From Paramacrobiotus metropolitanus (Eukaryota; Tardigrada; Eutardigrada; Parachela; Macrobiotidae): a stretch of DNA of 64,000 bases. The notes beneath the pieces were generated by a model that was given only the letters and a program-made list of their open reading frames with translations, was not told the DNA's origin and did no database searches. The position numbers were made by a program, and so were the translations under genes. Position 1 is the first letter of the stretch. Each line of letters starts with the position of its first letter. Positions 13,508 to 54,867 of this stretch are shown in pieces. The stretch is taken from NCBI RefSeq assembly GCF_019649055.1, contig NW_026570397.1, forward strand, positions 62,001 to 126,000. Reading direction: 5' to 3'.

Positions 13508-16500
13508 ATGCACCGCCCAATCAATAATGCCGAAGTGGAGGATCCCGAGGATATCGTCATCTCTGGAATCGGCATCCGTTGCGCCATGTCCGACAACGTC
13601 GAGGAGTTTGCCGACAACCTCTTCAACAGCGTCAACATGGTCCACGAGAATCTCGAGCGCTGTGACGAAGGTACGACTGGCAGCATAGTTTGCTTTATTT
13701 GCTTTTTTTACTAGCAGCCTTTTTTGATTCTAATGAAGCCGGTGTGAAGAAGTGGGTCTGAGTTTATGTGTAAACCAACGGAAATTGATTTTGTAAAAAT
13801 ATTTCTGGCTTCTATGGTAGGCTCCCATAATAGCACGCCCAGTTATGCTGTTGCTGCTTGACGGCCGTTAGTAGTGCGGCTATTATCAGCAGAGTAGCCG
13901 TCGGCTAACGAAGCCATGTCAGCGGCAGTTTAATTAAGCGTCTTTAACGGTCTTGAGATTTTTGCGGCAGATTTCCTTATGAAAGCAGAGTAGCCGTCGG
14001 CTAATGACAGTGCACTTGTTTGTGTGACAGACCACTTTGGAGTGCCGAAGCAGCAGGGCTTCATCAAGGACATCCGCAAGTTCGACGCCACCTTCTTCGG
14101 CGTCCACCCCAAGCAGGCCGACGGGATGGACCCGCAGCTGCGCATCCTGCACGAAGTGGCCTACGAGTGCCTCGTCGATGCCGGTCAGTGCCAGCCGTAA
14201 TTGTACAGAAACGCACAGGAATAAATCAATAGCAACAGTAAACTTAATTAAAATAAAATATTAATAATACAAGATACAGTTTTGTTTTTTAAAATGTTTC
14301 CGGCTTCTATGGTTAGTTCCCATAACGGCACACCCAGCTTTACTGTTGCTGAATGCAGAACTTCAAGATATCCAACGATTCTAACGATTACGGTTGTTGT
14401 TTTTAATTTCTATCTGTAATTTGTTCATTTTAATTAGTATAAATCCGCGCATGCGTATTTGAATGGGTGCTGGCTACTGCCGAATAAAATTGATACTTTA
14501 AATGCAATGCCAGTCAATAAAAGTTACTGAATAAATTTAACAATTATGGTCGTGTACAGCCATCGACCCGGCGAGCCTGAAGAACAGCAACACCGGCGTC
14601 TTCATCGGCACCTCCAACTCGGACGCCCGCGAGGCCTGGACCGCGCCCGACGTCTCGGAGATCGACGGCTACTCCCTCATCGGCACCCACCGCGCCTTCT
14701 TGGCCAACCGCCTGTCTTTCACCTTCGACTTGCGAGGTAACTATTGTAGTACAAATAAAGCGAGTCGGCTGTTTCCCATTTGTTGTCTCTGTGCGTACGA
14801 GGTCAGAAGTCATATGGTGCTGATGCAATGCGTCGTTATTTCCACAGGACCCAGTTTCGGTGTGGATGCCGCCTGTGCCACCAGCGGCGTCGCTATCAAT
14901 CAGGTATGTATACGGCAGTAATGTCGAGCAGCAAGGAAAAGCGCTCCAAGGATAAATAGTGCAGTTCCTCGCAGTTATTGCATAACAGCTGGTCAACGAG
15001 CGCACGCAGGGCCCCGGGCGCCGACTGACTCACAGTTTTTGGAAATATTTCCGGTTTGCTGGTTCCGCCGGAAAAATATTGTTGTAATTGATCGTCGATC
15101 GCGTGCTGCTCGTGACCAGATCTATTTTTTGGAACAGAAACGCGATTAGCAGTTTAGCAGATGTTTACAAAAATAACATTGTGCCTATTTGTATACAGTA
15201 CATGTAATGTATATATATATATACATTTAATACTACTTGTATATATGTAAACACGTACAATTGTATATACTACCATATATACAAATGTACTATTTATATA
15301 CAATATTTGTATATATTTTTCGCGCTTTTGAACTTACTGTATAGACAAATGTGTATATTATGGATTTACGCATACTTCTATGTATTTCGTAGGGATACTT
15401 GCACATCCGCAACGGCGTTTGCGATGCGGCCATCGTGGGCGGCGTGAGTCTGGTGTACCAGCCCAAAGTCTCCTACCAGATCCTCAAGCTGGGCTTACTC
15501 TGCCGCGACGGCAAGTGCAAGGTGTTCGACGAGGCGGCCGACGGGTACGTGCGCGCCGAGGCCATCGCCTGCGCCATGCTGCAGAAGCGCAAGGACGCCA
15601 AGCGCGTGCTGGCCACGCTCATCCACAGCAAGATCAACAACGACGGCTTCAAGGAGCAAGGTACTGTACACAAGGCTTAGCAAAAGCTGATCGAGATTAA
15701 TGAGAAACCTAAGCAAAGTGAAAAGCAGCATTTCCGGCCCGATAGTGACCTTTGCCGTTTGTGCATACAGGCATCACCTTCCCGTCGACGGAGAGCCAGG
15801 GCCAGCTGGTGTGCGAGGTGTACGCCGAGGCCGGCATCGACCCCGAGGACGTGGAGTACGTGGAGGCCCACGGCACCGGCACCACCATCGGCGACCCGCA
15901 GGAGACCAACGGCATCGCCATGGGCTTCGTCAACGCCCGCACCAAGCCGCTCCTCATCGGCGCCGTCAAGTCCAACATGGGCCACTCTGAGCACGCTTCC
16001 GGTAAACATTTAACACGTTTTAGGTTCAAACTCATTCCCAAATTAATTAATTTAAATTAAATGACAAAGTAGTTTGTTTAATTTCCAGTTAGTTTCCAAA
16101 TTAGTCGCCTTACTGTTACATTTCGAATTTACTAATTTCCCACGTTAGTTTGTAAATTTATAAACTAATTTTTAAACAATTTCTAAAATGATTTTGAAGA
16201 TCTTAGATCCGAACGTTTCCACATTTATTTGCTGGTTTCCGTATTTCCGAATTAATTGTATTTCCTTAAATTGAATTTCGGCTTAATTTTAAATTTCCAA
16301 GTTGCCGGGTTAATTTGTAAAATTCCAAATGGTAAAATTATTTTTTTCGTTTGGTTTAAATTATCTTATAATTTTCGACATAGTTGTTAAATATTTCCAA
16401 ATCGGAAGAATGAGCACAACATATATTTTACAGGCGTGGTGTCGCTGGCCAAGATCATGATCGCCATGCAAGCCGGCGTGATCCCCCCGAACATGAACTA

Positions 16501-19500
16501 CAAGAACCCCAACCCGCTGATCCCCGCGCTCGTGGACGGCCGGCTAAAGGTCATCACCGAGCCGACCAAGTGGAACTGCACCATCGCCGGCCTGAACTGC
16601 TTCGGCTTCGGCGGCCAGAACAGCCACTTGGTGGTGCGCGGCAACCCGCGCACGCGCCACGACACCATCAGCGAGCCGCGCCTCTTCGTCTACATGGGCC
16701 GCACGGAGGAGGCCGCGCAGACCGCCATGCAGTACGCCCTCAAGCACCAGGACAACCCCTACGTCTCCTACCTGCTGATGCAGACGGCCTTCACCAAGCC
16801 GGCCGCCATGCCCTACCGCGGCTACTGCCTCCTCAACAGCCCCAAGGGCGACCCGGCCATCCACGTCGACCGCGTCACCACCGAGGTCAAGCCGGTGTGG
16901 TACGTCTTCAGCGGGCAGGGCACGCAGTGGGCCTCCATGGGCCGCGAGATGCTCAAACTGGACGCCTTCCGCAAGTCCATCGACAAGTGCGCCCACGCCC
17001 TCAAGCCGCACGGCCTGGACCTGATTAAGCTGCTGGCCCACTCCACCGACGCCGACTACGAGGACCCCACCGTCTCCTTCGTCGGCATCGCCGCCATCCA
17101 GGTGGCGCTGGTCGACCTCCTCACCGCCATGAAGATCGACGCCCAGGGCTTCGTCGGCCACAGCGCCGGCGAGATCGGCTGCGCCTACGCCGACGGCAGC
17201 TTCACCGCCGAGGAGGCCGTCCTGGCCGCCTACTTCCGTGGCCGCGCCGTCATCAACGCCAAACAGCAGGCCGGCGCCATGGCCGCCGTCGGGCTGCCGT
17301 GGGCCGAGGCGCAGAAGCGCTGCCGCGGCGACGTCGTCCCGGCCTGCAACAACGCCAAGGACAACGTCACCGTCTCCGGCCCCGCCGACCAGGTGGCCGC
17401 CCTCGTCAACGAGCTGAAGGCGCAGAACGTCTTCGCCAAGGAGGTCAACAGCTACGGCATTGCCTTCCACTCGCCGGCCATGAAGGCCGCCGCGCCCGAG
17501 TACCTGGCCAGTCTGAAGAAGCTCCTGCCCAGTCCCAAGATGCGCACCACGCGCTGGCTGAGCACGGCCGTGGAGGAGGCCCAGTGGGGCTCGGAGGTGG
17601 CGCGCTACGCCTCCGCCGAGTACTTCACCCACAACCTCACCAACACCGTCAAGTTCCACGAGGCCCTGAGCAAGGTCCCGTCCAACGCCATCGTCGTGGA
17701 GATCGCGCCGCACGGTCTCCTGCAGGCCCTCATCAAGGCCACCGTCGGCAGCCAGGCCACGCCCGTGGCGCTGATGAAGAAGGGCGCCGACGAGCTCTTC
17801 TTCCTGGAGTCCATCGGCAAACTCTACGTCGCCGGCCTGAACCCCCGCGTCACCGAGATCTTCCCCAAACCGACACTTCCGGCGCCCCGCGACACGCCCT
17901 TCATCGGCTCCGTCGTCCGCTGGGACCACTCCGCCAACTGGAGGATCCCCTACCCCACCGACTTCATCCACAAGGGCGGTAAGGGCGGCGCCCACCACAC
18001 CTACACCTACGACCTCAACGACCCGCTCAACGTCCGCCTCTTCGACAACAAGGTCGGTCGGCAGCCCGTCTTCAGCGTGGGCGCCTACCTGAACATGACG
18101 GCCAAGGCCTTCGCCGCCGAGACCGGCAACACCATCGAGAAGGCGCCCCGTGTCCACTTCAGCGACGTCGAGATCCGCAAGACCCTGCCGTTGACCCCCG
18201 GCGCCAAGATGGCCTTCGACGTCAGCGTCACCAAGTCCACCGGCTACTTCGAAATCAACCACAACGGTGAGACCATCGTCACCGGCACCGTGGGCGTGGC
18301 TGACGCCTTCAACACCCACTTGTCGGAGGACATCCCGGACCACACCGACGCGCGTCTGGACCGCCACACGACCTACAACGAACTGCGTCAACGCGGCTAC
18401 AACTACGGTCCGCAGTTCCAGCTGCTGAAGAACACCAACGAGCACGGCACGCGGGCCCATATCACCAGCCCGGCCGGCTACGACGGCGCCGTCGACGCCC
18501 TTATCCAGTTGCTGGTGCTCAGCCAGAACAGCCGCGACCTGGTGGTCCCCACCGAGATCGGCTCGGTGACCTTGGACATCTCCAAACTGTCCTCGGCGCT
18601 GCAGTCGGACGGCACCCTGCCGGCCACTGTCTACCCGGAGATGGGCATCGCCACCTGCCCCGGCGCCGAGATCGAAGGCGTCCTGCTGGCGCCGGTGACC
18701 GGGGACTTCCAGGCCACCCACCAGTACTCCGTCAAGGAGCACGGCTTCCTGGCCAACAGCGGCAGCGTGCACCGCACCGACGCCGAACACCGCTACGTCC
18801 AGGACTACCTCCGCGTGCTCACCGACTACCTGCACACCGAGAGCGACCGTCTGGTCCGCAGCGGCGCGTCCTCGACCATCTTCAAGGAGATCGCCGCCAG
18901 CCGCGGCTCCACCGGTAAGACCGTGTCCCCCGCCACCGATCCTTTCTCGCATGAGCCGCGCGCCACCCTCTACAACCTGCTCCGCCAAGTCTTCGAAGCC
19001 GTCAACCACCGCCACCCGGGAACGCCCGTCGATGACGTCATCCGCCGCACCGTGACCTCGCTGCGCCCCACCCTCAAGGATGACCTCTTGCTCAACACCC
19101 TCACCAAGCGAAGCGTCATGCAGCCGGTCTTGGACGTCGCTCTGGAGAACACCGACGACGACGTTGTCCAGATTCTGGAGCTCCTGCGTGGCGACCAGCC
19201 CTCCAAGAGCGCCGACATCGTCACCGACTTGACTTCGCCGCACGATGCGCCCGTGGAGTTCAAGAGCCTCGCCGTCAAAGCCGGTCAGCAGACGGAGATC
19301 CACCCGGGGTCGGCCACAATCCTCGTGGCGGACACATACTTCACCAACGGCCTGCAGGCCCTGCCCGGCGACCTCAAGACCATCTCCACCATCCTCAAGG
19401 ACGACGGCTACCTGCTGGCCGTGCAACCCTTCGACGGCCCCGTCAACGAGTTGGCCACCTTCATCGCCTCCGTCGAGGCCAAGAACGGACCCACCCGCTT

Positions 19501-22500
19501 CCCGACATACGAGCAGTTCCGACAGGCGCTGCAGGCCGAGGGTTTCGCCGTGGTCCTGGAAAAGGAGGACGGTGTCTTCAACCGCATGATCCTGGCGCGT
19601 AAGACGACCGCCGAACCCCCGACCAAACACCACTCCGTCTACCTCAACGAGCGCTCCACCCTGGACCAGCACGCCGACCACGTCTCGGAGGAGCTAACCC
19701 GACATTTCAAAGACCTGGACACCGACGCCTCCTCCGACAGCCGCGTGTGGCTGGTGGCGCCGCGCGGCCGCACCGACCTCGCCAGCGTCCTGACCCATCC
19801 CAAGATCCGGGAGCACCCGCACGCGTCCCGTCTGCGCTTCGTCGGGGACCGCAGCACCACCGGCAACGGCCTGCCCAAGTTCAGCACGGCCGCGCCCTTC
19901 GACCGCGTCCTGGCCGGGGATCTGCGCTATAACGTGCACGATGGCCGCAACTGGGGCACCACCCGCAACGTCCCCTTCACGTCGGACGTCCTGACCGACG
20001 CCACTACCGCCGTGGCGCATGACACCTTCGAATGGCACGAGGGGCCGGTGCAACACGCGGCCGCCAACAAGGAGACCATCGCCGTCACCTACGCCACCGT
20101 TAACAAGGACAAGAAGCTCGTTGCCTTCGCCGGTCAGACAGTGCCCCGAGGGGAACCCGTTGTCGGCACCGTCCCCGCCACCAAGGTGGCCACCCATGTC
20201 GCGGTGCACCCCGAGGACGTTGTTCCGCTGCCCAAGGGTCTCTCTGCCCGCGACGCCGCCACCGTCGTCTTCCCGTACAGCGTGGCTTACTATGCGCTCA
20301 GTCATCTGGCGCGTGTCAACAAAGGTCACTCCGTCCTCGTGCATTTTGATGAAGCGGCTCCCGCTCAATCCGAAGCCGTACTGCGCACCGCCGTCCTCCT
20401 GGGCGCCGACGTCTTCGCATCCGGAAGCGTCCCGGAACACGTGGCCCGTCTCCCACAACTGCAAGGACGTGTCTTGACTTCGCTGCATGACAAGAACGCC
20501 GCTGCCCGCATTCTGCAGGCCACCGGCGGACGCGGTGTCAGCGTCATCGTCAACACTGGCCGCTCGTCGCGTCTACAGGAGAGCGCTCGCGTCATCGCCC
20601 CCAACGGCACCTACCTGGAAACGTCGAAGGTCACCGCCGGTGACCGAAGCAAGGCCGCGGTCAACAAGAACATCACCGTCTACAAGAACGTCGCCGATGC
20701 CGTCACCCGTCTGGACGGACCGACCAAGCAGCCGGTCACCGCCTTCCTTGCCCAGGCCCTGTCCCGTGGCGACATTGCGCCGTTGCCGCTGCGCCTCGTC
20801 CGCTCGCTGAAGGACATCAACACCGTCACCGACGAAGCGGTGGTTCTGGACGTCCGCGGGGAGAACACGGCCCCCATCAAGGCCACCCCGAAAGCCCACT
20901 TCAGTGCCAACAAGACCTACGTGGTGGTGGGCGAGAGCGAGGAAGTCCTGGTGGGTCTGGCCTACTGGCTGACCACCCGCGGGGCCCGCCTCATCCAGCT
21001 CAGCAGCCAGGCCAACGTCGGCCCGGTGCTCAACCGCGAACGCCGCTTCTTCGAATCCCAGGGCGTGGAGATCAACGTTAACAACGGACAGACGGCCGAG
21101 GCCCTTCTGCAGACCGCTGCATCGCGCGCTCCCCTCGGTGGCGTCTTCGTGCTGGACCATGTCAACTTCAACCAGCGCCAGACACCGCCGTCCAAGATCA
21201 ATGTCACCGATCTGGACCGGGCCGTGCGCAACGTGGCTAAGGACTCCCTGGACTTCTTCGTCGTCCTGACCTCCGTGCTGCACCAGGGCGCCTCAACGGC
21301 CGAAAACGTTGTGGACAGCCGCAGCGCCGCCGGACTACCGGCGCAGATCGTGCAAGTCGGCAACGTGGTCTTCCACAAGAACGACCCGGACCACCCGGAC
21401 ACCACCGAGGAGGACCACAAGGCCATCTCGCTGCCGACCCTCTTCGACGCCCTCACCGACATCGTCCGCCGACCCGTCACCACCGCCGTCATCTCGCCGC
21501 CGCCGGCCGTCCACCGCCAGCGCACCGCCGCCTTCGACGAGGACGGCAGCGGACCGCAGGACAAGTCCTACCTGCCGCAGGCCGTGGCCAAGATCATGGG
21601 CATCAAGGATTTCGGCGCGCTGGACATGTTCCTGTCGCTGGGTGACTACGGCATCGACTCCCTCATGGCCATGGAACTGGGCAAGATCCTGGAGCGCGAC
21701 TTCAACCTGTCGCTGACGCTGCAGGAGATCCGCTCGTTGTGCGTGCGCGACATCTGCCTCATGTCCGGCGCCACCAACGCCGTGGAGGCCGCCAAGTTCT
21801 CCGAGAACAAGACCCTGTCGGAGGTGCCGACGCTCCTCGACACCGTCAAGAAGCACTACAACCTCAACGAGCTGGTGCCCAAGGAGACCGTGACGCTGCT
21901 GCGCCAGGTGAAGGAGCGCAATGACACCCTCTTCATCGTCCACCCCATGGAGGGCTCCGTGCTGCCCGTGCTGGAGGCCCTGGCCAACCATCTGCAGGTG
22001 ACGACATACGGCCTCAACTGCACGCAGACCAGCGACATGACCTCCATGCAGACGCTGGCTGCTTCTTATATCAAGGTAAGGGATCAAGCGCAAGAAATCA
22101 GTATACGCTGTGTGACTATATGTACGAAGTACACATATAATTAAGATATACGCGTATAAATATATATAGGCGGCATATATTTATTTTTACATATGCGTAT
22201 ATATCTTTGCTGTATGTATGTATGTAAACAGGATGTATATATTTTGAAGTATATTTATATACTGCTCATGATCATACACGACGTACATGTTTATTAGTCT
22301 ATATGATAATTATGTGTATAATCCAGTTAAAATAACTTTTATGTAATCGATTTATTCTTGTTCGGACAGGCTCTGAAGCAAGTACAGTCGCACGGCCCGT
22401 ACAACCTGGGCGGCTACTCCTTCGGCGCCGGCGTGGCCTTCGAGATGGCGCTGCAGCTGCAGAAAGAAGACCCCAAGAGCGTGCGCAACCTGGTGCTGCT

Positions 22501-23271
22501 GGACGGCTCGCACTCCTTCGTGGGCGCCTTCACCAAGACCATGAAGGGTGGCTACACCGTGGACCCCAATATGCCGCTGGACGAGATGAACAAGCGCAAG
22601 CAGACCGCCTTCGAGGTGGCCATCTTCGTGCTGTACGTCACGCAGCTGGTCAAGACCCAGCGCAAACAGGTACCGACATTTATACAGCGTCACGGATTTT
22701 AAAGGTCACTTCTATGTTATAGCGGTGTGACTCTTTGTGTTCGCGTAGTTGACGTAGATTAAAGGTCACACACTTTAGATAACGAAGATATATACCACTC
22801 ACCGGTGTTAGCCTAAAGGTCCCGCTGTGCTTGTTTAGTTGACGGAGAAGCTGCAGGCCGCCCGCAGCTTCGAGGAGCGCGTGGACGTGACCGCCCAGGA
22901 GCTCCAACGCTGCCCGCAGCTCAGCCACATCCCCCTGGAGACGCTGCGCACCGCCGCGGTGCAGTTCGCCGAGCGCCTGATGGTGGCCGACGTCTACAAA
23001 CCGACGGGCAAGTACAACGGGCCCCTGACGCTGGTCAAGTGCAGCGAGAAGATGATCCGCAACCTCGGCGAGTACTACGAACTGGACAAGGTAAGTTGGC
23101 GGCGTTGCGCTCAACCGACGTGTCCTTGACAGAGAGTGCGTGTTGCAGGTGGTGGAGCATCGCGACAAGATCCGCGCCGTCACCGTCAACGGCAACCACG
23201 AGGGCTTCGTGCTGGGCGAGAGCGCCAAACTCACCGCCAACTACATCAACGAGTCCGTGCTCTCTCATTAA
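13508..23271 (+). CDS. fatty-acid-synthase-like megasynthase, 2,454 aa, degenerate reductive domains
   Basis: Exons 13,508-13,670; 14,031-14,183; 14,560-14,736; 14,848-14,903; 15,393-15,660; 15,771-16,001; 16,434-22,075; 22,370-22,669; 22,839-23,090; 23,149-23,271. All junctions are GT-AG with matching phases; stop TAA. Domain order is that of animal cytosolic type I FAS. Ketosynthase: Cys174 in DAACATS, His306 in EAHGTGT, His344 in [10 protein letters not shown]. Malonyl/acetyl transferase: GQGTQW, Ser593 in GHSAGE, His695. Dehydratase region about 880-1110. Methyltransferase-like core about 1200-1420. Enoyl- and ketoreductase regions about 1540-2030. ACP: phosphopantetheine Ser2092 in DYGIDSLMA. 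Thioesterase: Ser2247 in GYSFGA, Asp2275, His2431. The DH His position is Asn888 (Asp1037 kept). The ER glycine-rich NADPH loop is absent ([12 protein letters not shown] at 1654-1665). The KR lacks its glycine loop ([12 protein letters not shown]), and its catalytic Tyr/Asn positions are Val/Ser near 1976-1980. Loading, condensation and release look functional; beta-carbon reduction probably is not. Seven of the ten coding exons are short, while 5.6 kb of one exon has no intron. Confidence 0.95.
13793..14355. repeat. duplicated segments in introns 1 and 2 of the FAS-like gene
   Basis: A segment of about 65 bp in intron 1 (13,793-13,858; contains GGCTTCTATGGTAGGCTCCC) recurs, diverged, in intron 2 (14,279-14,355; GGCTTCTATGGTTAGTTCCC). 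A shorter AGCAGAGTAGCCGTCGGCTA repeat occurs twice in intron 1 (about 13,888 and 13,984). The second copy ends about 20 nt before the exon 2 acceptor. Confidence 0.7.
15190..15325. repeat. TA-rich microsatellite in intron 4 of the FAS-like gene
   Basis: Runs of TATATA and GTATATAC-type units. A similar TATA-rich tract fills intron 7 (about 22,140-22,330). Confidence 0.7.
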
Positions 23272-24609: not shown

Positions 24610-27600
24610 TCAGCATTTATTCACAGATCGGCGCTTATCCGGCTTCGGCCACTCTGGGTACAGAGTGGTCACATCAAAAGCGTCGGCAGAGGGGCCGCCA
24701 TCCAGGCTGCTGCTGACCGAGGGCGGCGGCGCGTGCCGCTTGCGGTCCCGGACGTGGCCGGTCCGGATCAGCTGGTCACCGCTGCCGCACTGCAACGGCG
24801 ACACACAAATATTAGGGATTGAAATTATGCGCTTGTCGAATTAAGAAAATAAGAATTATTGCTATTTGTTGGAAGCTGGGTAGCGGTGTGGCCTACCGAT
24901 AAACGATCCTCCAGACTATCAGCGCTGCTTCTGGACACGAAGGACGGACTCAAGGTCAGCGTGCTGCCCCGTGTGCTTTTAGCTTGCTCGTCTGGCTGGT
25001 CCAGAAGACGCCGCGGGAAGTCCCAGTTCTGGCTTTGTGTCGACGTTCTCTGTCGATAAAACCAACAGAGTGAAAATTAGCGTTTAGGTTACGGTGTTCT
25101 CTGGGGATACCTTGGAGGCTTTTCTGTGTCGGCCGTGGACTTCCGGTAGCGGATGAATCTGCACCGGCTTCTGGCCCGCATAGTACGAAAGGTCAACCGA
25201 ACGGATCTTTCTCCTGACAACGAGCAGCGATGAAATCTTTTCAGTGAGGTATTGAGCTGTTTACTAAACACAGGAAACCGAACGCTTACTTTCGGCTGCA
25301 ATGGTAGCACAGGCAAGTGGTTCCCAGGATGACCAGCAGCACGAATACAGCAAGTCCCACAGCCAGTGCTGCAAGTAAAATTTGCTTATGAATCAAGTGC
25401 GATCTGCAGACTGGCGATGTACAGTATCACTTACCAAGCCAGTGAATCTGACAGCTCTCGCCTATGTACCAGTAATAACCGACACAAGCGCGCTGGTCCA
25501 GTTGCCGTACCACCCCTTCCACGGACCCCACGTCGGGATCCACCGGCGCACTGGCGTTGTGCCGACAGACCTTCCCCGAACCGACGCCCGCGGGGGAAGT
25601 GTCCACGAAACCCTCACGGCAGAAGCAGAGAAAGTTGCCGACAAGGTTGATGCATAGCGCGTCGGCTGAGCAGCCGCTCACCGCCGGGTCAGTGCACTCG
25701 TCGATATCTGCGCAGGACACCGGTATATCATTGCACGAAAAGGGCTACTGTTTAGAATGTCGTATTGTCGTACCTTCGCAGCCGGCACCGGGCGTCTTGG
25801 ACGGTTGGTAGCCTGGCGGGCAGCCACAGGAATACTCTTCACCGTTCCAATGGCATACTTCCGCTAAGGCCGGGCATGCACCGCTGACGTTGCCTCCGCA
25901 AACGGCCACTTTCCGTTCGAATGACCTTTATCCATTTATAAGATTCTGCTTATTAAATAAAGCACAGCAAGCGGTACATGATGGACATACTCGCTTGGAT
26001 GTTCGCTTTGAAAGAATGTGAGCAACAGCGCTTGTCCTTGGGAAATCGGCTGCCGATGACCGTTGGCGCTATCTAGTCCGGAATCGGCCGATCGTTTGGC
26101 TAGAGGTTTCTGTATGGTTACCGTTAGTTTGGAGAGCCCATCGGAGCCGGTCTGCGCCATGGCGCGCGGCATGTCATTTGCTGCGGGCTGCGCGGCGTTG
26201 GTGACGGGAGCGTAGTAGTAGGCGATGCGCGTGCGGTCGCCCGGGATGCGGCTGTTGCCGATCCAGGCGAAGAAGGCCTCGGGCCGGCTGGTGGAGGTCA
26301 GAGTCATGCCCGGCACGGCGCTGATGGGCGACACCGTCTTCAGGTCGCTGGCCGTGTAGAAGTGCCCGTTCTGCGCCACAAAGGTCACCGTCCCCATGCT
26401 CATCAAGCCCTCGGTGCCCTGCACGGAGTAGGCCGAGTACGAGAACGACTGCCCACTGGCGCCGGCATTCGCCGGGCCGGACGGCGAGGGGCCGCGCTGG
26501 ACGCTGCTGGGTTGGATGGGGAGTGCCGGTTGCGGGCTCTGCAAAGCGGGCTAAATTAGCAACAAGTCGGTATACTTCTAAAAGATGGGCAAGCACTTAC
26601 TTGACCGTTGTCACCTATTTGGTTGAAGTTAGCCTGTTGGGTGTTTTGAGTGGTGACCTGGACACCAAAGGCGTTGGCACTTTGCTGTCCATTGCCTGTT
26701 TGTCCATTGCCCATTTGTTGGCTGGTTGGCTGGTTCGGTATGCTGGCAAACTGTTGCTGCTGCTGTTGCTGTTGTTGCTGCGGCTGCTGAGGATTCATCC
26801 CTTGTTGCATGCCTTGCCCCGGGCTGTTCTGGAATTGCCCATTCCCCATTTGCTGGTTGGCGTTCTGCATGCCGTTAAACTGCTGCTGCTGTTGTGCCGG
26901 CTGGGGATTAAATAACTGCATACCTTGTCCCGGCGTGGTCTGGAATTGCCCGTTTCCTGTTGGTTGGTTGTCATTCTGCATGCCGCTAAACTGCTGTTGC
27001 TGTTGTTGTTGCTGTTGCTGCTGCTGTTGTTGTTGCTGCTGTTGCTGTTGTTGTTGCTGTTGTTGAAATTGTTGTTGCTGCTGTCCATTGCCAAACTGCT
27101 GCGACGGCTGACTGTTTGACCCCGCGTTGGGCATCTGAGGATTTGAACTGGCTACGAACTGACCGGATGTACCGGAGGACTGGAATGACTGGAAGTTTTG
27201 CGAACTGGACTGCTGGTTTTGTGAGCCGGTAATGGCTCCAAACTGGTTACTGTTGCCTTGACCCTGAAACTGCTGCCCGCCTTGAGACGGCTGGTTGATA
27301 TCCGCTTGACCATTCGGCGAGTAGAAGAAGTTGACGATGGTGCGCGTGCCGGTGACCGGGAGGCCTTGGTAGGCCGTCTGGAAGGGCTCCGTCCGCTTGA
27401 CGGACGTCAGCATGCCGGCGCCCACGATGGCGTTGCCGGGCTGAACGATGCGGAAGTCGAAGACGGCCGTTGGCTGCGCGTTGCTCCCGTCGGGATAGCC
27501 GAAGGACATGGCGCCGTACGTCAGGAACTTGTCGCCGCCCTGCGCGCCGTACGCGGAGATGGTGTACCCCTGCGGGAGGAGGTTGTTGTTGGCGATGTTG

Positions 27601-30600
27601 AAGGTGGGGTTCGACGCCGGCTGGACACCGGTGGGACTGATGGGGACGGCGTTGTTGACGCCGTTGGTGAAGCTGCTCAGGTCGATGGAGTTCGGGGACG
27701 GATTCTGGTTGATCACCGGGTTTGGCTGGTTGGGGAACGGTTGTACTGGCTGGGTGTTCAGCACCGCCGGTTGTCCGTTGGGCTGGACGTAGAACACGCT
27801 GTAGCGGGTGCGTTTGCCCATGACGCTCAGCCCATTGATAACGGTCGGGAAGGTCTCGTATATCGTGGTTGTGGATAGCGACAACTGCACGTTGTTATAG
27901 TTATTGTCGAAGAAGTTGCCCGGCTGGACATTCCCGATGGGGATGTAGTCGCCCTTCCCCGGGATGTAGGTGCCGGGATACTGCACGGCGGGAGTGACCA
28001 CCACTTTCAAGGAGTTGTCGGAGCCCTTGCTGACGCATTCGGCGCAGATGACCAGGCCGCCGTTGACGTTGTAGACGCTGCCCTGCGCGTAAAAGGTGCT
28101 GATGGGCGGGATGGACGTCCCGTAGGTCACCGCGCCGTAGGTGGCCGCGCCGTTGTTGTAGTTGACGAAGGAGGTCACCGTGACGGGGACGGCGTTGATG
28201 GAGGAGTAGTAGGTGGTCAGGCCGTACCAGTAGGTGCCCACAGCGGGGACGTTGTTCGGTCCCGGGAAGGGCTGGAAGGTGGTGGGGATGTTGGTGGGGG
28301 TCGGCTGGATCTGGTTGTAATTGGCGTTTCCGCTTCCCTGGTACTGGACTCCCGCGTTGCCGTTTCCGGAGTTGGTTACTTGAGAACCGCCGAAATTCAT
28401 ATTTTGGTTTTGGTTGATGGAGCCGCCCGCCGGAATTTGACCGGCGTTGCCCATGTTAAAGCTCTGATATTGCGCCGCATTCCCGGTGTTGACGTTTTGA
28501 GACGAGCCGGGATTCTGCGCGGCCTGTCCTCCGCCCATGGAGCCAGCGTTAATGTTTTGGGTCTGCCGGAAATCACCGGCGTTCGTATTGGAATTCCCTC
28601 CGCCGTTCTGCTGATACTGCACCCCAACAGCGCCGGCATTTCCGCCACCGGAAGTGACCTGATACTGCCCCGAGGCACTGCTGCCCTGCTGGAACTGACC
28701 CACGAACTGCGCTCCGCCCATGTTCGGGCTCTGGCCTTGTTGTTGTCCAACATACTGGCCGGGATAAGCGTTGCCACCGCCTCCGTTGAGAATGATACTC
28801 ATCTGCACCGGCGACTTGGTCACCGTGCCGAAGATGGGCGTCCCGTCGATGAACTTGGTGTAGTAGGAAATCGTCTCTATCACGCCGTTGTTCAGTCGAG
28901 TGGTCTCGATACCATTTTGTATATATTCGCCTTCAAATAAAGCTCAGTTAAACTTCTAATGATTGTTTTTTCACACTGGTTTTAGTGTTATACGGCGCCT
29001 TACCTTTACTGGGCACACCATACCGGTTCTGGCCGTAGGCCAGTGTGTTCCCGTTGTAGACCTGCGTCTGGGCAGCGGACGTCACTGCGCCATATGTCGC
29101 CGATCCATCGATGTATTTGGTGTAGGACGAAACGGTCACCGGGTATCCATAACTGCCGGTCGTCGTGAACACCGCTCCTGGCAGCGTGTATGTCCCCGTT
29201 GTGGGGACGCCGTAGGGATTCTGACCCGGCTGCATCAGCTGGCCGTTGTAGTAGGTCACGACCGGCAAAACCATCGGGGCCTGGGCGCCGGCGTTAGCGT
29301 TGCTACCGCCCTGGGCAGCCATGATGTTGCCGCTCTGCCCTCCGCGGTTGTCCAGCGTCCCGGCGGCTGCGCCCGCGTTCCCGCCGGCACTGTTCTGGTA
29401 CTGCACGCCACTGCCGGCCGCCGCACTGCCTCCAACGGCCGCCCCGCTGCCGGCGTTGGACGACTGGGCAAACGCTCCGCTGCCCTGTTGACCGTTGCTC
29501 TGGTCGGTGTACACTTGCGCTCCCATGTTCTGCCCGGGCGCCTGAAACATGGCCACGCGGGCCTGCATGTCCGGCACTGCGCCGCTGCCGTCCATACCAC
29601 CCATCCCCATGTTGCGCTTTTCCCGCGGATGCGCCGCCGATCGCGGAGGATCCTCCAGGGGAGCGGTGCCGCCTCCCGCGGCCGGCTTGTCTGGATTGGC
29701 GATGCGTCGCACCATTGAGTCCAGGTTGCCGAAGACGTTCTCACTGGGCACGCCCGGGAAGAAGCTCTCGGGGAACGACGGCATCACCACCGACTCGAAG
29801 GTGTAGGTGCCTTCACGGTCGCGCGGGATCACCGGTTCCGGCTCGTTTTGCGGCAGGAAGTAGGAAAGACCATTTCCCGCTGCAAATAAAATGTTCGCAT
29901 CTTGTTAAACCAAATAATTTATTTTCGCCGAATTAAGGCAAAATGTTGGTTTAGAGTTGGAGAGGAATTTTGATTTGCTGCCGCACAGAGCGGAAGCAGA
30001 CTTCAAACGGTGCAAACTGTACTGTGCCCGCAGGCTGGCCTTGTGTACGGAGAGTGTGAGTGTCCATCTGTCTAACAGTTTCGTAAGCCTCTCATCTCAA
30101 AAAATACTAAATTACTGTGTCTACTCGTATATATAGTTGCAGCAGCCGTCCTGGCTACACTGAATACACCTCCTAGCAAATTCCGGGCGTATTGATACTA
30201 CGGTAGTAAATTGGTTTCAAGCGTACTGATAGGTAAAAATAAATAACTCTCTTTTTTATTATATATATAATATTTTATTCTTTTTGTTCTAAATTGGTTT
30301 ATCAAGTTCAAGTGTAAATGGCTTTTAGCTTGTACAATTTGTCAATAAAAATACAATAACCCTCTTACTTAATCACAATTATCCAGCGTGTGTTGGGAAA
30401 TGGGAACTGCACTTTCCCATGTTATTTGGAAGGGATTTCTCTTAAGATGTTGTCTAAGTACGCTCTTTGTAAATTTACTAAATGTATTTCATATATGAAG
30501 ATAGAGCTTTGTTATAGAAAATCCATAATTTTTATTTCACACTAAATTTATTTTGTGAACCGAGAACATACAACACAAAATATGTGTTCCACTATTTCTA

Positions 30601-49604: not shown

Positions 49605-50515
49605 ACAACTGAAACCTTAAAGGTCAGTTGTGATCTCGTGAAACGAACGGCAATATCAGCAAGGAAACGCTGAGTGGAATTTGTAAGTAAAACGTGCGAA
49701 AATTCGCAGAGATTTAGCCGTTCTTTAAATCGAAACCTTGCAAAACATTGAACTTTCGTATCTGAGTTAGTGGAATAGCCACTACTCCACGATTTTGAAA
49801 ATTCTCGAGTTAGTGGAAAAGCCACTACTCTACGATTCTGAAAATTCTCGAGTTAGTGGAAAAGCCACTACTCTACGATTTTGAAAATTCTCGAATTTCG
49901 GTAAAATCAACAGAGCGGATATAACCGTCTCGTGTTGTGTTAACGCGGTATCACTGATAGGCGGAATTCAGCCACAGTGTGTAACTAGCGGTAAAATACA
50001 GTAAACAGCTGAAACCTGAAAGGTCAGCTGTGGTAAATTGAAACGTAACGAAAGCAAGTTGTACATGCATACTTAAGTGTATGCTGTAACAACGAAATAC
50101 GAAACCAGCGTTAAGCAGTGCTTTTCGTCTGGTGGGTTCAAACGAAACGGTTCTGTCAGTTGTCCTGTCAGCCCTTGGGTAATACAAACTGGGTGATTCG
50201 TCATCCAGTGGGAACGGTGCAATTGCTCCTACTTAATCCACTTAGTGGTACGGTATGTAGCAGTAGCACTGAAATACGAAGTGAAGCTTCTGAAACCTTA
50301 AAGGTCAGTAGCATAAACGAAATAATACAAGTAGCTTTTGCACGCGAAGGTGCGTGTGAAGCGGTAATACGAAGCAGATCGTTGCGGTGTACTTAATCCA
50401 CTTAGTGGTACGGTATCGCTGTAATCGGTCGGTGGGTAATACAAACTGGTTGTGTAATCAACCAGTTGGAACAGAGCAACTTTTGCTTACCAAAACCCGT
50501 TTAAACGGTACGGTA
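49605..50515. repeat. structured leader of the gypsy-type element
   Basis: This stretch holds many short self-complementary elements: three CTGAAACCTTAAAGGTCAG-type hairpins (49,605-49,629; 50,006-50,030; 50,287-50,311), three 43-44-bp tandem units at 49,763-49,893 each with an AGTGGAAAAGCCACT stem, a GCATACTTAAGTGTATGC palindrome (50,067-50,084), and a 25-bp direct repeat around CCACTTAGTGG (50,231-50,255 and 50,391-50,415). Confidence 0.75.
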
Positions 50516-50542
50516 CAGCCGCGGTTGCCTGAAACGAACAAA

Positions 50543-52912
50543 ATGTCGGTCGCAGACCCTGATACGAAAAAATCTCGGGCCAATCAGCAGTTTGATTCAC
50601 ACCTGGAGGAAGTAAAAGTCAGAATGGCATTAAGGCAGAGTAAGTCTCAGAACACAGCGGTTATGTCAGATAGGCATTTTAATAGTGTCACGGTAACTAG
50701 CGGTAGTTCCGGGGTAAATAAGGCTCCTCTGGTAGACCTGTCAAACGGTTCTTCCATTGGCGCACAAATTATGAATCCTTCCTCTCAGCGTATGCAGTCA
50801 GTAACTGGTTGGTCAGTGCCGGTGGTAAATCCATATAATGTGGTAAACCCGAATAATTCGGTAACTCCACAAGTGGTAATTCCACCAGTGGGAAACTCAG
50901 ATGGGCAGCTTGTAATCTCCCAAGTGAATAATTTTGGTGAAAAAGTAAATTGGTCGACAGTAACAAACGCCCGGAGTGGTGGTGTAAATGTCGGTCAGAA
51001 TATATGGCAGTCGGATGATTCAAGTTCAGGCGGTAACATTTCGTGTTCAGGATGGAATAATACGTTGTCGTCGCAATTATCAGCGGTAAGCAGTGCATTA
51101 AGTCAGAATAAAATCAGTAGTTCAGAAAGGAGCGATGTTTATACATCCGTCAATGGCACTAAACCCATTGACAAGGATGATGATTTGAATTTCGATGATT
51201 TGATATGGGGCAGACCCCAGTCGTCAGAGGAAAGTATTTTCGAGGTCAATGAAACTAATTTCGATAGTTACTCTTGGTTGAATAAGGAAGCACCGCAAAG
51301 CGGTGCTGGCGCAAGTTCAAAACCCTCTATGCGGTACGAATCGAGGCAGGTAATTTATGGTAGTCACTCCTTATTGGATGTTGATTTACCGAGAAATGAC
51401 ACAGATAAATGGTCGTCTGATTTATCACAAATTATTCAGGAAAAGGGCGCCAGCCCATTACCGACAGAATTCCCACAAGAAGTGTTTAAAGTGGTACAGA
51501 AATTGCAAACTTTGCAGTCCGAACAAGACGTGAGATCTGCAGTCACAGAAAATGCCGGTACTCTAATACGCTGTACAAGGCACTTTCCTATCCTACGACA
51601 GCAACAAACTGACTCCCAAAACGAAATAAGAAGGTTAAACGAAACATTAAGCCGTGAAAAGTATGAAAACAGCATACTGCACGGGGAATTGAACGTCGTA
51701 AAACAGAAATTTTCGGGATTGGTAGCAGATTTCAAATTAATGGATGAAAAGCTGAAAGCTGTATCAGAGAAATGTGAACTAACAGAACAAATTAATAAGA
51801 AATTAGAGCTTGATAAAAGTAACTTTTCAGAAATAATGGAAAGTTATTTGGAAATTGATTCTGAATTGAAATTCGTAACAGAACAGATGCAACAGTTAAA
51901 AGCGGAAAATGAAAAGCTGATGCAAGTGCACCAAGCAACTTTGCTTGCAGCATTCAAAGAAAATGAGCGAAATGCACGAGAAATTGAACAGTTAAATAGA
52001 AATGTAAGTAGGGCAGAGCAGGCCAGAGTATTCTTGAAGGAAAAGTTAAGTGAGGCCATTAAAGAAAATGAAAGATTGCATGAGGAATGTGTTCGGAAAG
52101 ACGGGTTTTCAAAAGAGATTCAGGACAAAGTGCAAGCAATGCACGAATACATGGGAAAGTCACAGTATATTTTCGAAGAGCTAAGTAATCGGCTTAATTA
52201 CAGCACGGTTACTGGCCAAGTGTCGTGTTTCAGTAAGGAGAAATCCTTCGAAGCAGAAAAACCTGTGAGCACGGCTAACATAATGTGTAGTCGGCCGCCG
52301 ATATCTGAAAACACCAGGCAGTCAGATGTTACGATTAATAACTGCAGTTCGCCAGGAGGCTTCAAGGCCATGAACGTAAGTAATACGTCGCAGTCAAACT
52401 CTGTAAGAACTCCATTTAATGGAAGTACCGGCGCATATCAAGTTTGCGGGGGTGAATTTTCTCCGGACGGTGGTGGTAAAGTTTGCGGGGGTGAAACTCT
52501 CCCGGTTGGCCAGTTGGGATCACCCGTTGAAAGGGAGAATGTACCTAAGCAGTACGGAGAACAACCGAATCGGTCAGTACCGGGTATTGAGACCCAGGTC
52601 AAGGAAGTAAGATTTCAAGTGAAAAATAATGAAGCAATCGAGCGGATAAATCAGCAAAGGACACAGGTCGGTCATAACGCAGCACAGCACAATAATGCAG
52701 TCGAAGACGGAAATCGTCCGAATCAGGTAAGAAGGTCACGTGATGACCATGTTTTACAGCAGGTAAATGGAACTGCAGATACTGGTGAATTTTCGGAAAT
52801 AATGAAACTGATACAGAGTGTAAATAAAAATTGTTCTGATCGTAATGAAATAATGAAATTCTGGTTCAGTACGGAAATGGCTTTTACAAGTCGAACAGTG
52901 TCGTACTTGTAA
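50543..52912 (+). CDS. gag-like ORF of the gypsy-type element, 789 aa, long coiled coil
   Basis: The ATG at 50,543 is the best start; the frame is open upstream to 50,387 but without context. The N-terminal third is Ser/Asn/Val-rich and probably disordered. Residues about 350-550 form a strong heptad-rich coiled coil (for example LKAENEKLMQVHQATLLAAF, EQLNRNVSRAEQARVFLKEK). The C-terminal part is polar and ends at the beginning of a retrotransposon-gag domain (SEIMKLIQSVNKNCSDRNEI...), where the frame stops at 52,912. The next ORF carries the rest of that domain, so a frame change is needed. Gag proteins coat the element's RNA. A coiled coil this long ahead of the gag core is unusual. Confidence 0.75.
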   Translation: MSVADPDTKKSRANQQFDSHLEEVKVRMALRQSKSQNTAVMSDRHFNSVTVTSGSSGVNKAPLVDLSNGSSIGAQIMNPSSQRMQSVTGWSVPVVNPYNVVNPNNSVTPQVVIPPVGNSDGQLVISQVNNFGEKVNWSTVTNARSGGVNVGQNIWQSDDSSSGGNISCSGWNNTLSSQLSAVSSALSQNKISSSERSDVYTSVNGTKPIDKDDDLNFDDLIWGRPQSSEESIFEVNETNFDSYSWLNKEAPQSGAGASSKPSMRYESRQVIYGSHSLLDVDLPRNDTDKWSSDLSQIIQEKGASPLPTEFPQEVFKVVQKLQTLQSEQDVRSAVTENAGTLIRCTRHFPILRQQQTDSQNEIRRLNETLSREKYENSILHGELNVVKQKFSGLVADFKLMDEKLKAVSEKCELTEQINKKLELDKSNFSEIMESYLEIDSELKFVTEQMQQLKAENEKLMQVHQATLLAAFKENERNAREIEQLNRNVSRAEQARVFLKEKLSEAIKENERLHEECVRKDGFSKEIQDKVQAMHEYMGKSQYIFEELSNRLNYSTVTGQVSCFSKEKSFEAEKPVSTANIMCSRPPISENTRQSDVTINNCSSPGGFKAMNVSNTSQSNSVRTPFNGSTGAYQVCGGEFSPDGGGKVCGGETLPVGQLGSPVERENVPKQYGEQPNRSVPGIETQVKEVRFQVKNNEAIERINQQRTQVGHNAAQHNNAVEDGNRPNQVRRSRDDHVLQQVNGTADTGEFSEIMKLIQSVNKNCSDRNEIMKFWFSTEMAFTSRTVSYL

Positions 52913-52928
52913 TGGCTGGAATGATAAT

Positions 52929-53393
52929 ATGACATGTCGCCAAGTATTAGCCGCTCTGGAAGGCAATGCAGTTGTGTGGTTCCAAAATTTGATAAGAGAT
53001 AAACCAAATGAATCTTGGGAAAATTTTTATAAGAAAGAAATTTTGGAACATTTTAATGACTCGTTCACGTCGCAAGAAATAAGGCGAGAAATGTCAGCTC
53101 GAAAATTCAGTGAAAATGACACAGTGGACAGTTACGTGGACAGTTTTATACTGTGGTTTGAAGAATTGAAATTATCACAGGAGGAGAGAGTCAGTATTTT
53201 GTTAGAGGGATTGAACCCGAACAAGCTTGACTGGTATGAAAAATTGTTTCTGAGGAAAATTGTTAATCAGCATGAGTTAATTCAAGTAATGCGTGACTTT
53301 GAGAAAGTGGAAATTAATTTGGGTCAGAGTTTTACCGTGTTCGATAATGGGCAGTTTTTAGCGATGAAAGTGGCGGTCATCACGCAGATTTAG
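52929..53393 (+). CDS. gag core domain, second ORF of the gypsy-type element
   Basis: The 154 codons contain the retrotransposon-gag signature: QVLAALEGNAVVWFQNLI, then ESWENFYKKEILEHF, a REMSARKF...TVDSYVDSFILWF block and a LLEGLNPNKLDW block. In frame, sense codons extend upstream of the ATG (C-N-G-W-N-D-N-M), so the domain begins in this frame before 52,929 and overlaps the end of the first ORF. The stop at 53,393 overlaps the protease frame, which is already open near 53,346 in the -1 phase after a GTTTTTAG run. The second junction could be a -1 gag-pol frameshift; the first falls inside a domain and looks like damage. Confidence 0.7.
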   Translation: MTCRQVLAALEGNAVVWFQNLIRDKPNESWENFYKKEILEHFNDSFTSQEIRREMSARKFSENDTVDSYVDSFILWFEELKLSQEERVSILLEGLNPNKLDWYEKLFLRKIVNQHELIQVMRDFEKVEINLGQSFTVFDNGQFLAMKVAVITQI

Positions 53394-53554
53394 AAAATGA
53401 TGTTCAGGCCAATCTAGGCAGCAGTCCTCAGGGAATTATTACTTATGAGGATCAGTCAGGAAATGATAATAATTTCGAAAATTGCGATAATGAGCAACAG
53501 GGTGAAGAAAATGATGATTATCAGGCAGATCCGAGCGCCGTTGAACCGACAGTT

Positions 53555-54604
53555 GTGGGTAATAATTACCAGGAAAATTTTCAACCGGTAATTAATGTAA
53601 ATAATTCCGATAACGAGCAACAGAATGATGGTTGGTCGTTCGAAAACCAAAACGGGTTGGCAGATCAAGAGTTTACGGAAAGAAATAATGTTCAGAATAA
53701 TATGATCGAATCGAGTTATAATACTAATTCGTTGAGGAAAGGTAAAAAGCGAAATAACGTCGCAGTAAATGTGGACTTATCTCAAGTCCAAGTTTCTAAT
53801 CTGGATATGCATAAGCCGACGATTGATGCACAAACATGGATGTGTGTGCTCAATGTTAATCACTGGCAGACCAAGGTCATGGTTGATACTGGGGCAAGTA
53901 TTTCGATAATTCCGCTCAAGTTAGCTCAAAAGATGGGTTTAGCAGTAATGCGGTGCGATGACCATATGGAAGAAATGATGGTAGATTCTGCATATGATAA
54001 TTTATGTAAAGTGGAGCCCTTATCTGCGTTAATTGCGATTCATGAATTCGGTACGATTTTTGAACACACGTGTACAGTGAGTTCCAAAGTTGATCGTGAT
54101 CATATCATTTTGGGAATGGATTTCCTTTTTGGGAAACCATTTGCCCTTGATTTTAACACTATGTCTTTGCGTCTTTGTTGCCGAGACGAGGAGCGTCATG
54201 CGTATACAAAGCGTACTAGGTATAGGTTTGATGAGATGATTAAATTTCATCACTTTAATCCCGCAGCAGCGCCATACATTTTGGAAACTCCAGCAATCCC
54301 GGCGTTATTACGTACAAGGCCTTTGGGGCTTGCACCTTATGCTGAAAATGCTGAATTTGTAACGTATGAAACAGCACATAACATTTTCGCCGACGCACCA
54401 AAAGAGTGGAGTCAGGCTGGATTGAATGATGCTAACGTAAGATGGCCGAGAGAGCCAGAATCGTTCGATTTTGATGAAGAAATTCAGAATAATAACCCGC
54501 CCATAGATTCGTATGCGATTAATGCTAATTCTGCAAAAATTCGCAAACCTATTGGAAAAACGAAAGTAAATTTGCTAATAATTTTAAACAGTCTGAAAAC
54601 GTGA
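53555..54604 (+). CDS. retropepsin-type aspartic protease ORF of the gypsy-type element
   Basis: The frame is open from about 53,346, through an acidic D/E/N-rich linker, to 54,604; the position given is the first near-start. The protease core is clear: KVMVDTGASISIIPLKLAQK has the catalytic D-T-G, and HIILGMDFLFGKPF is the usual ILG.DfL motif about 75 residues later. The rest (to 349 aa) is a proline-containing tail without a recognised domain. The polyprotein then has stops in all frames for about 260 bp before the next ORF, so this copy is either multi-ORF or slightly decayed. Confidence 0.75.
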   Translation: MGNNYQENFQPVINVNNSDNEQQNDGWSFENQNGLADQEFTERNNVQNNMIESSYNTNSLRKGKKRNNVAVNVDLSQVQVSNLDMHKPTIDAQTWMCVLNVNHWQTKVMVDTGASISIIPLKLAQKMGLAVMRCDDHMEEMMVDSAYDNLCKVEPLSALIAIHEFGTIFEHTCTVSSKVDRDHIILGMDFLFGKPFALDFNTMSLRLCCRDEERHAYTKRTRYRFDEMIKFHHFNPAAAPYILETPAIPALLRTRPLGLAPYAENAEFVTYETAHNIFADAPKEWSQAGLNDANVRWPREPESFDFDEEIQNNNPPIDSYAINANSAKIRKPIGKTKVNLLIILNSLKT

Positions 54605-54867
54605 ATCAGGGATGGACGCAAGCAAGTTTGCGGGGGTATAAGAATCAGTCTCGGTCGGATAATATTATTAGTCCTCAGTTTTCCGGAAGCAGTGGTCAAG
54701 TTTGCGGGGGTATAGCTGGTAGTTCAGCAGGAGCCCGGTAATTCAGTGACGAAACGTACAGGCAATAACGTGCGAAATTCTCAGTCTAATCAGAATACGA
54801 GTACAAAACAGCCAGTTGAGAGGAAAGTTCAAGAATTAACTGTTGGTGGTAAAACGTTGAATATATT

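Follow-up and report, generated by a model that had tools for sequence, protein, structure and literature searches.

A 64,000 bp stretch of the genome of the eutardigrade Paramacrobiotus metropolitanus (the window; C177:62001-126000 in an assembly of 169.8 Mb in 533 contigs) carries, at 13508-23271 on its + strand, a ten-exon gene whose 2,454-residue product is laid out like an animal cytosolic fatty acid synthase (FASN). The reading that we favor, with moderate confidence and from sequence comparisons, is that this product is a natural non-reducing fatty acid synthase (FAS) that makes short poly-beta-ketides and that arose by conversion of the tardigrade FASN orthologue. Its ketoacyl synthase (KS), malonyl/acyl transferase (MAT) and acyl carrier (ACP) domains are intact and its ketoreductase (KR), dehydratase (DH) and enoyl reductase (ER) domains are, as far as sequence tells, non-working, which is the combination expected of a non-reducing iterative synthase. 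The known shifts from FAS to polyketide synthesis in animals went by way of extra gene copies, the animal FAS-like polyketide synthases (AFPKs); here the FASN orthologue itself would have lost reduction, with its condensing, loading, carrier and release parts under strong constraint. No description of this gene, or of a tardigrade FAS that has lost its reductive domains, was found in the openly licensed literature searched.

Reading frame and catalytic sites

Exons 1-6 (13508-13670, 14031-14183, 14560-14736, 14848-14903, 15393-15660 and 15771-16001) encode most of the KS (PF00109, PF02801); exon 7, which occupies exactly 16434-22075 (5,642 bases), runs from the end of the KS through the MAT, the eroded DH to KR region and the ACP into the start of the thioesterase (TE); and exons 8-10 (22370-22669, 22839-23090 and 23149-23271) supply the rest of the TE. 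All junctions are GT-AG, the spliced frame is continuous and has no internal stop, and its translation is identical in every letter to the NCBI entry 'fatty acid synthase-like [Paramacrobiotus metropolitanus]'. An earlier note on this DNA had described a clean 2,454-codon frame with strong third-position bias, and both parts are borne out: the third-position GC content (GC3) of the spliced frame is 0.91 overall, 0.79 in the ER and 0.89 in the KR, versus 0.48-0.63 in all 13 open reading frames of 220 codons or more that were listed from other contigs (a set that skips loci L001-L007 and L017-L037 and may include some non-genes). The difference hints at strong translational selection, and hence at a possibly abundant protein. 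Over its 1,191 codons the eroded block contains no stops where base composition predicts 13-25. When five canonical FASNs were compared with exon 7 by tblastn, each matched in a single frame throughout, two of them in one match and three in two matches separated by a gap at the pseudo-methyltransferase part, and none gave a significant match in another frame.

Alignment with seven canonical FASNs finds the KS residues Cys174 (codon 14874-14876, in the motif VDAACATSG), His306 and His344 in place. The MAT (residues 505-819, 16898-17842; PF00698, E=5.7e-78) has Ser593 (17162-17164) and His695 in the catalytic columns, the ACP (residues 2055-2130, 21548-21775; PF00550) has its phosphopantetheine Ser2092, and the TE (residues 2150-2454, 21833-23271, across the end of exon 7 and exons 8-10; PF00975, E=4.8e-21) has Ser2247, Asp2275 and His2431. 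The earlier note had called the condensing, loading, carrier and release sites intact, and all the residues that it numbered are where it put them. These four domains, the KS through PF00109, PF02801 and PF16197, also score above their Pfam cut-offs.

The reductive part has a different appearance. In the degenerate DH (residues 860-1115, 17963-18730; PF14765 at a marginal 24.9 bits versus a cut-off of 23.7) the HxxxGxxxxP motif is lost, with Asn888 (18047-18049) for the catalytic His, Arg for Gly and Ser for Pro, and Asp1037 (18494-18496) is retained. The following pseudo-methyltransferase and pseudo-KR region (residues 1116-1540, 18731-20005) is little conserved, and its PF21149 match (E=0.059, 14.1 bits) lies below the cut-off of 27.4. 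The degenerate ER (residues 1541-1830, 20006-20875) scores 21.1 with ADH_zinc_N (cut-off 31.8) and has lost the canonical LNFRD motif, the Lys and the GSGGVGQ NADPH loop, the last replaced by [10 protein letters not shown] at residues 1656-1665 (20351-20380). In the degenerate KR (residues 1840-2050, 20903-21535) the GGLGGFG loop has become GESEEVLVG (residues 1849-1857, 20930-20956) and the catalytic Tyr and Lys are gone; the KR family PF08659 is not among the 13 Pfam families that match the protein at E<=1. The DH and loop replacements had been seen in the earlier note and hold against canonical FASNs. It had also read the Tyr-x3-Asn of the KR as Val-x3-Ser; the absence of the Tyr stands, and the Val depends on the alignment, since the column holds Leu1965 in ours.

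Might the missing residues simply have been displaced? No GxGxxG/A motif is present in the ER-KR part (residues 1541-2055 here) of this protein or of either of the two tardigrade orthologues described below, and the P. metropolitanus protein has no Tyr at all in residues 1861-2055; the same stretch has stray Tyr residues in the orthologues, three in Ramazzottius and one in Hypsibius, in which the catalytic setting is absent. Of the full reducing set (DH His and Asp, ER and KR NADPH loops, KR Tyr and Lys) only the DH Asp survives in P. metropolitanus. The earlier conclusion that this protein would be unable to reduce the beta-carbon alone thus finds support in its sequence, in its two orthologues and in the pattern of conservation.

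Full-length alignment with canonical FASNs and predicted folds give the domain order KS-MAT-DH-psiMT-ER-psiKR-KR-ACP-TE in a single chain. In the predicted models the DH and ER would have the folds of animal FASN (2vz8 from pig and 8vf7 from human); the alignments behind the models included canonical FASN rows, which biases them toward the canonical fold, the ER part dominates the ER-KR match list, and the models have no bearing on activity.

The KS, although its catalytic residues are intact, is itself altered. At twenty KS positions that are fixed in canonical FASNs all three tardigrades have a replacement, and at 18 of these the three share the new residue. Around Cys174, Ala replaces both Thr172 and Ser175, and Thr replaces Ser176; in addition Phe213 has become Ile and Met218 Leu (residues 174 and 213 align with 161 and 200 of chain 5my0). 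In the MAT, Met511 is Gln. The resulting motif DAACATS occurs in three of the 342 proteins examined, which are the three tardigrade proteins (pattern matching found no motif in 32). The replaced KS residues may shape the acyl pocket.

Tardigrade orthologues, constraint and descent

Among the 120 matches listed from a protein search (825 in all) there are two close relatives, both from tardigrades: RvY_04096 of Ramazzottius varieornatus (57% identity over 62% of the query) and a protein of Hypsibius exemplaris entered as 'Fatty acid synthase' (65% over 45%). The other 117 listed are canonical FASNs at 32-45% identity. Neither a profile search built on all three orthologues (7,877 matches of 7,982 scored) nor a search with the KS-MAT part that was aimed at shorter pieces (3,906 of 7,991 scored) added a further tardigrade name among the 120 matches listed for each, many of which are unnamed and below which a canonical tardigrade FASN could rank.

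The catalytic residues of the KS, MAT, ACP and TE are intact in all three tardigrade proteins, and the ER and KR loops are missing in all three. Of 222 proteins with 2,100 or more residues, just these three lack both the ER and the KR loop pattern; single misses (12 for the ER pattern, 7 for the KR and 13 for the DH) may be variants. Pairwise identities among the tardigrades are 85-92% in the KS, 86-93% in the ACP, 60-69% in the MAT and 61-68% in the TE, and fall to 36-39% in the DH, 25-33% in the pseudo-methyltransferase and pseudo-KR region, 26-31% in the ER and 19-26% in the KR. The corresponding means for canonical FASNs (15 pairs of six proteins from several phyla, one of the seven aligned being left out) are KS 67, MAT 61, DH 47, ER 69, KR 63, ACP 52 and TE 35%. 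The divergence times of the two sets are unequal, so the ranking of the domains counts and not absolute identity, and in that ranking the ER and KR go from the top in canonical FASNs (with the KS and MAT) to the bottom among tardigrades. Columns invariant in canonical FASNs (fixed in at least 98% of 117) are kept by the tardigrades at rates of 83% in the KS (of 127), 84% in the MAT (of 66), 81% in the ACP (of 14) and 100% in the TE (of 9), versus 43% in the DH (of 33), 27% in the ER (of 112) and 24% in the KR (of 65). Because of this domain pattern, the lack of stops and the high GC3 of the eroded block, the sequences indicate that selection still maintains production of the entire chain and no longer maintains its reductive sites. 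All three tardigrades retain the DH Asp and Ramazzottius still has the DH His, so decay of the DH seems partial or later, the reductases having apparently been lost first or further.

Two trees were made from the first 900 residues, with 38 and 36 rows, the first without nematodes and neither with a named AFPK or a fungal or bacterial row. The tardigrade clade has support of 100/100 in both. In the first, tardigrades join arthropods (100/99), with an open fork with chelicerates and the rest; in the second, nematodes, then tardigrades, then arthropods branch in turn (93/93, 88/94 and 81/76). This is the position that the species tree predicts for FASN, and in the second tree the tardigrade clade is not drawn to the 13 divergent arthropod FAS-like rows. 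The KS-MAT part matches mammalian FASNs at 827-834 bits versus 720-725 bits for EcPKS1 and EcPKS2. Judged by these relationships the gene is the tardigrade orthologue of animal cytosolic FASN, that is, by descent FASN itself, converted. The tardigrade stem is long (1.43 and 0.99 changes per column in the two trees, versus 0.11-0.23 for the tips), and such a burst followed by slow change has the look of functional change. Transfer of a polyketide synthase (PKS) gene from a bacterium or fungus is unsupported by the trees, which hold no bacterial or fungal rows, and animal-type FASNs make up all of the best database matches.

Copy number in the genome and other features

Is this the only such gene in the animal? 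Six-frame searches of the 170 Mb assembly with PF00109, PF00698 and the protein itself found no second intact FAS-type KS or MAT gene. PF00109 matched seven places: three exons of this gene, two of a gene on C2 whose 189-residue piece is the mitochondrial ketoacyl synthase (E=1.4e-63 to 2c9h), and two weak ones that are thiolases (PF00108, 4.6e-73 and 1.2e-28). PF00698 matched two, this gene and a piece of the mitochondrial malonyl transacylase on C4 (E=1.3e-25 to 8csp). The protein itself matched 21 places, of which nine are this gene, one is the C2 gene, two are thioesterases of nonribosomal peptide synthetase (NRPS) genes and nine are decayed fragments on C179, C125 and C84. A canonical FASN, at ~40-45% identity over the KS-MAT part, should be detectable by these searches. 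A search with PF21149 (pseudo-KR) is uninformative, as neither it nor its control gave matches. Two things thereby go beyond the earlier note, namely that the gene is FASN by descent and that the genome searches turned up no other intact gene for a FAS-type KS or MAT.

The places on C179, C125 and C84 were rejected as further FAS genes, as they are decayed MAT and DH pieces. They belong to dispersed, decayed copies of parts of the FAS gene (L038-L044); in several, MAT residues ~514-661 directly adjoin DH residues ~1022-1075 and stops are present, as if one deletion derivative had multiplied, and one (L041) additionally carries later pieces of the gene. The places on C76 and C63 were likewise rejected, as they are in NRPS genes. 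These two NRPS-type genes (L045, C76:33001-43000, and L046, C63:375001-385000) lie on contigs of 680 kb and 875 kb and have condensation, adenylation, carrier and thioesterase domains; a 2023 survey reports no NRPS in the two tardigrades that it examined (PMC10531068).

Elsewhere in the window an AT-rich retrotransposon-like block (50387-59481, + strand) has aspartyl protease, reverse transcriptase, RNase H and integrase in long open reading frames, the first of which has no Pfam match. On the - strand, 26556-29904 holds long repetitive Q/N/G-rich open reading frames (GC3 ~0.74) with no Pfam match, perhaps for a secreted structural (cuticle) protein.

A proposed non-reducing synthase and its alternatives

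In the mechanism that we propose, the MAT would load malonyl (and a starter) onto the ACP and the KS would condense repeatedly; the beta-keto groups would stay because the KR, DH and ER no longer work, and a short poly-beta-ketide would be released either by the TE or by spontaneous closure to a pyrone. The product would most likely be triacetic acid lactone or a closely related tri- or tetraketide, and the eroded DH-ER-KR part may serve as a folded spacer that keeps the ACP and TE in register with the KS-MAT. That the enzyme is active and that its product is triacetic acid lactone or near it are both inferred. Deprived of NADPH, mammalian FAS yields triacetic acid lactone, as does an engineered 'nrFAS' made up of KS, MAT and ACP, and KR variants shift the output of mammalian FAS to pyrones (PMC12856111). 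These systems share the working elongation domains of the tardigrade protein but are engineered or starved, whereas the tardigrade gene evolved and retains its decayed domains and TE.

Among natural enzymes, animal type I FASN shares the domain order, the predicted DH and ER folds, the best KS-MAT match and the tree position, and differs in having the DH His, the ER and KR cofactor loops, the KR Tyr and an unchanged KS active-site motif. AFPKs (EcPKS1 and EcPKS2, mollusc mo-clades 2 and 4) are likewise FAS-derived with altered reduction, but EcPKS1 and EcPKS2 match less well than FASN does and the converted tardigrade gene sits in the FASN line itself. According to PMC10764717, AFPKs are FAS-derived polyketide synthases identified in molluscs and arthropods only, InterPro predicts KS-AT-TE alone in mo-clade 4, the KR of mo-clade 2 is predicted to be inactive, and a tardigrade FAS was in the training set of its hidden Markov model, 'tardigrad' occurring once in the text of the paper. 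By analogy, the tardigrade enzyme probably works like the reduction-deficient mollusc AFPKs, though it is FASN by descent. Fungal non-reducing PKSs such as PksA differ from it, as it has animal FAS architecture and no N-terminal SAT domain (PF00109 starts at residue 14).

Several points weigh against this interpretation. In the tree without nematodes the arthropods are not one clade relative to the tardigrades, and the forks around the tardigrades in the other tree get moderate support only. The claim of a single gene comes from one assembly searched in six frames, with 19 of 25 first-look candidates scored in the protein search, and PF00698 did not pick up decayed MAT pieces that came out of the protein search, which shows limited sensitivity. 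The changes of Thr172 and Ser175 to Ala beside the KS Cys could also mean altered or lost condensation, and because the TE is conserved and pyrone release needs none, some other release is suggested. Mouse FAS mutated at single KR sites retained some reductive activity (PMC12856111), and by that analogy the eroded domains may keep residual activity.

The earlier note had offered three fates, a non-reducing synthase, help from separate reductases and a scaffold; the first is favored here and the others are less so. Loss of the synthase role, with the protein retained as a malonyl-CoA decarboxylase, acyl carrier, thioesterase or scaffold, is unlikely, although it is the strongest of the alternatives: it accounts for the replacements beside the KS Cys and requires no reduction, but Cys174, His306, His344 and the loading, carrier and release sites, invariant in three species, would be needless for a mere scaffold. 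We give slightly less weight to the idea that fatty acids are still made, the ACP-bound chain being processed by trans-acting reductases and a dehydratase, much as LovC is a trans-acting enoyl reductase that serves LovB. Animals need membrane lipids, the KS, MAT, ACP and TE are intact, and conservation of the ACP is high, as if it met external partners; yet this would take substitutes for two reductases and a dehydratase, and the KS active-site region has changed too.

A little less probable again is that the gene is a specialized paralogue, itself perhaps non-reducing in mechanism, and that a normal FASN was missed through an assembly gap or divergence. Several FAS-like genes are common in arthropods and molluscs (PMC10764717), and the published P. 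metropolitanus genome, possibly another assembly than the one searched, has a BUSCO score of 72.9% (PMC11191345); but the Ramazzottius and Hypsibius scores are similar and are read by the same authors as real loss or a poor BUSCO fit, the PF00109 and PF00698 searches gave only this gene, mitochondrial enzymes and thiolases, and the tree position fits FASN itself. A pseudogene, frameshift or gene-model error, which the loss of otherwise invariant motifs might bring to mind, we reject as very improbable, in agreement with the earlier note: the eroded domains lie open within a single uninterrupted exon, GC3 is high even there, the tblastn matches keep one frame, the NCBI protein is identical, and two other species share the losses and the conserved KS, MAT, ACP and TE.

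What would a non-reducing FASN mean for these animals? If the gene is the only copy, they would have no cytosolic de novo fatty acid synthesis. More tentatively than the mechanism itself, we suggest that the one cytosolic FASN of eutardigrades may now be of polyketide type, that long-chain fatty acids would come from dietary fat and mitochondrial synthesis, and that the gene would supply a tardigrade-specific polyketide (a pyrone or an aromatic), possibly for cuticle, pigment, defense or stress tolerance. Peroxisome gene losses in tardigrades, reported in PMC5531438, are other unusual traits of their lipid metabolism. If true, the conversion would be a natural experiment in the rewriting of FAS programming, would make a testable claim on tardigrade nutrition, and would point to a new tardigrade metabolite.

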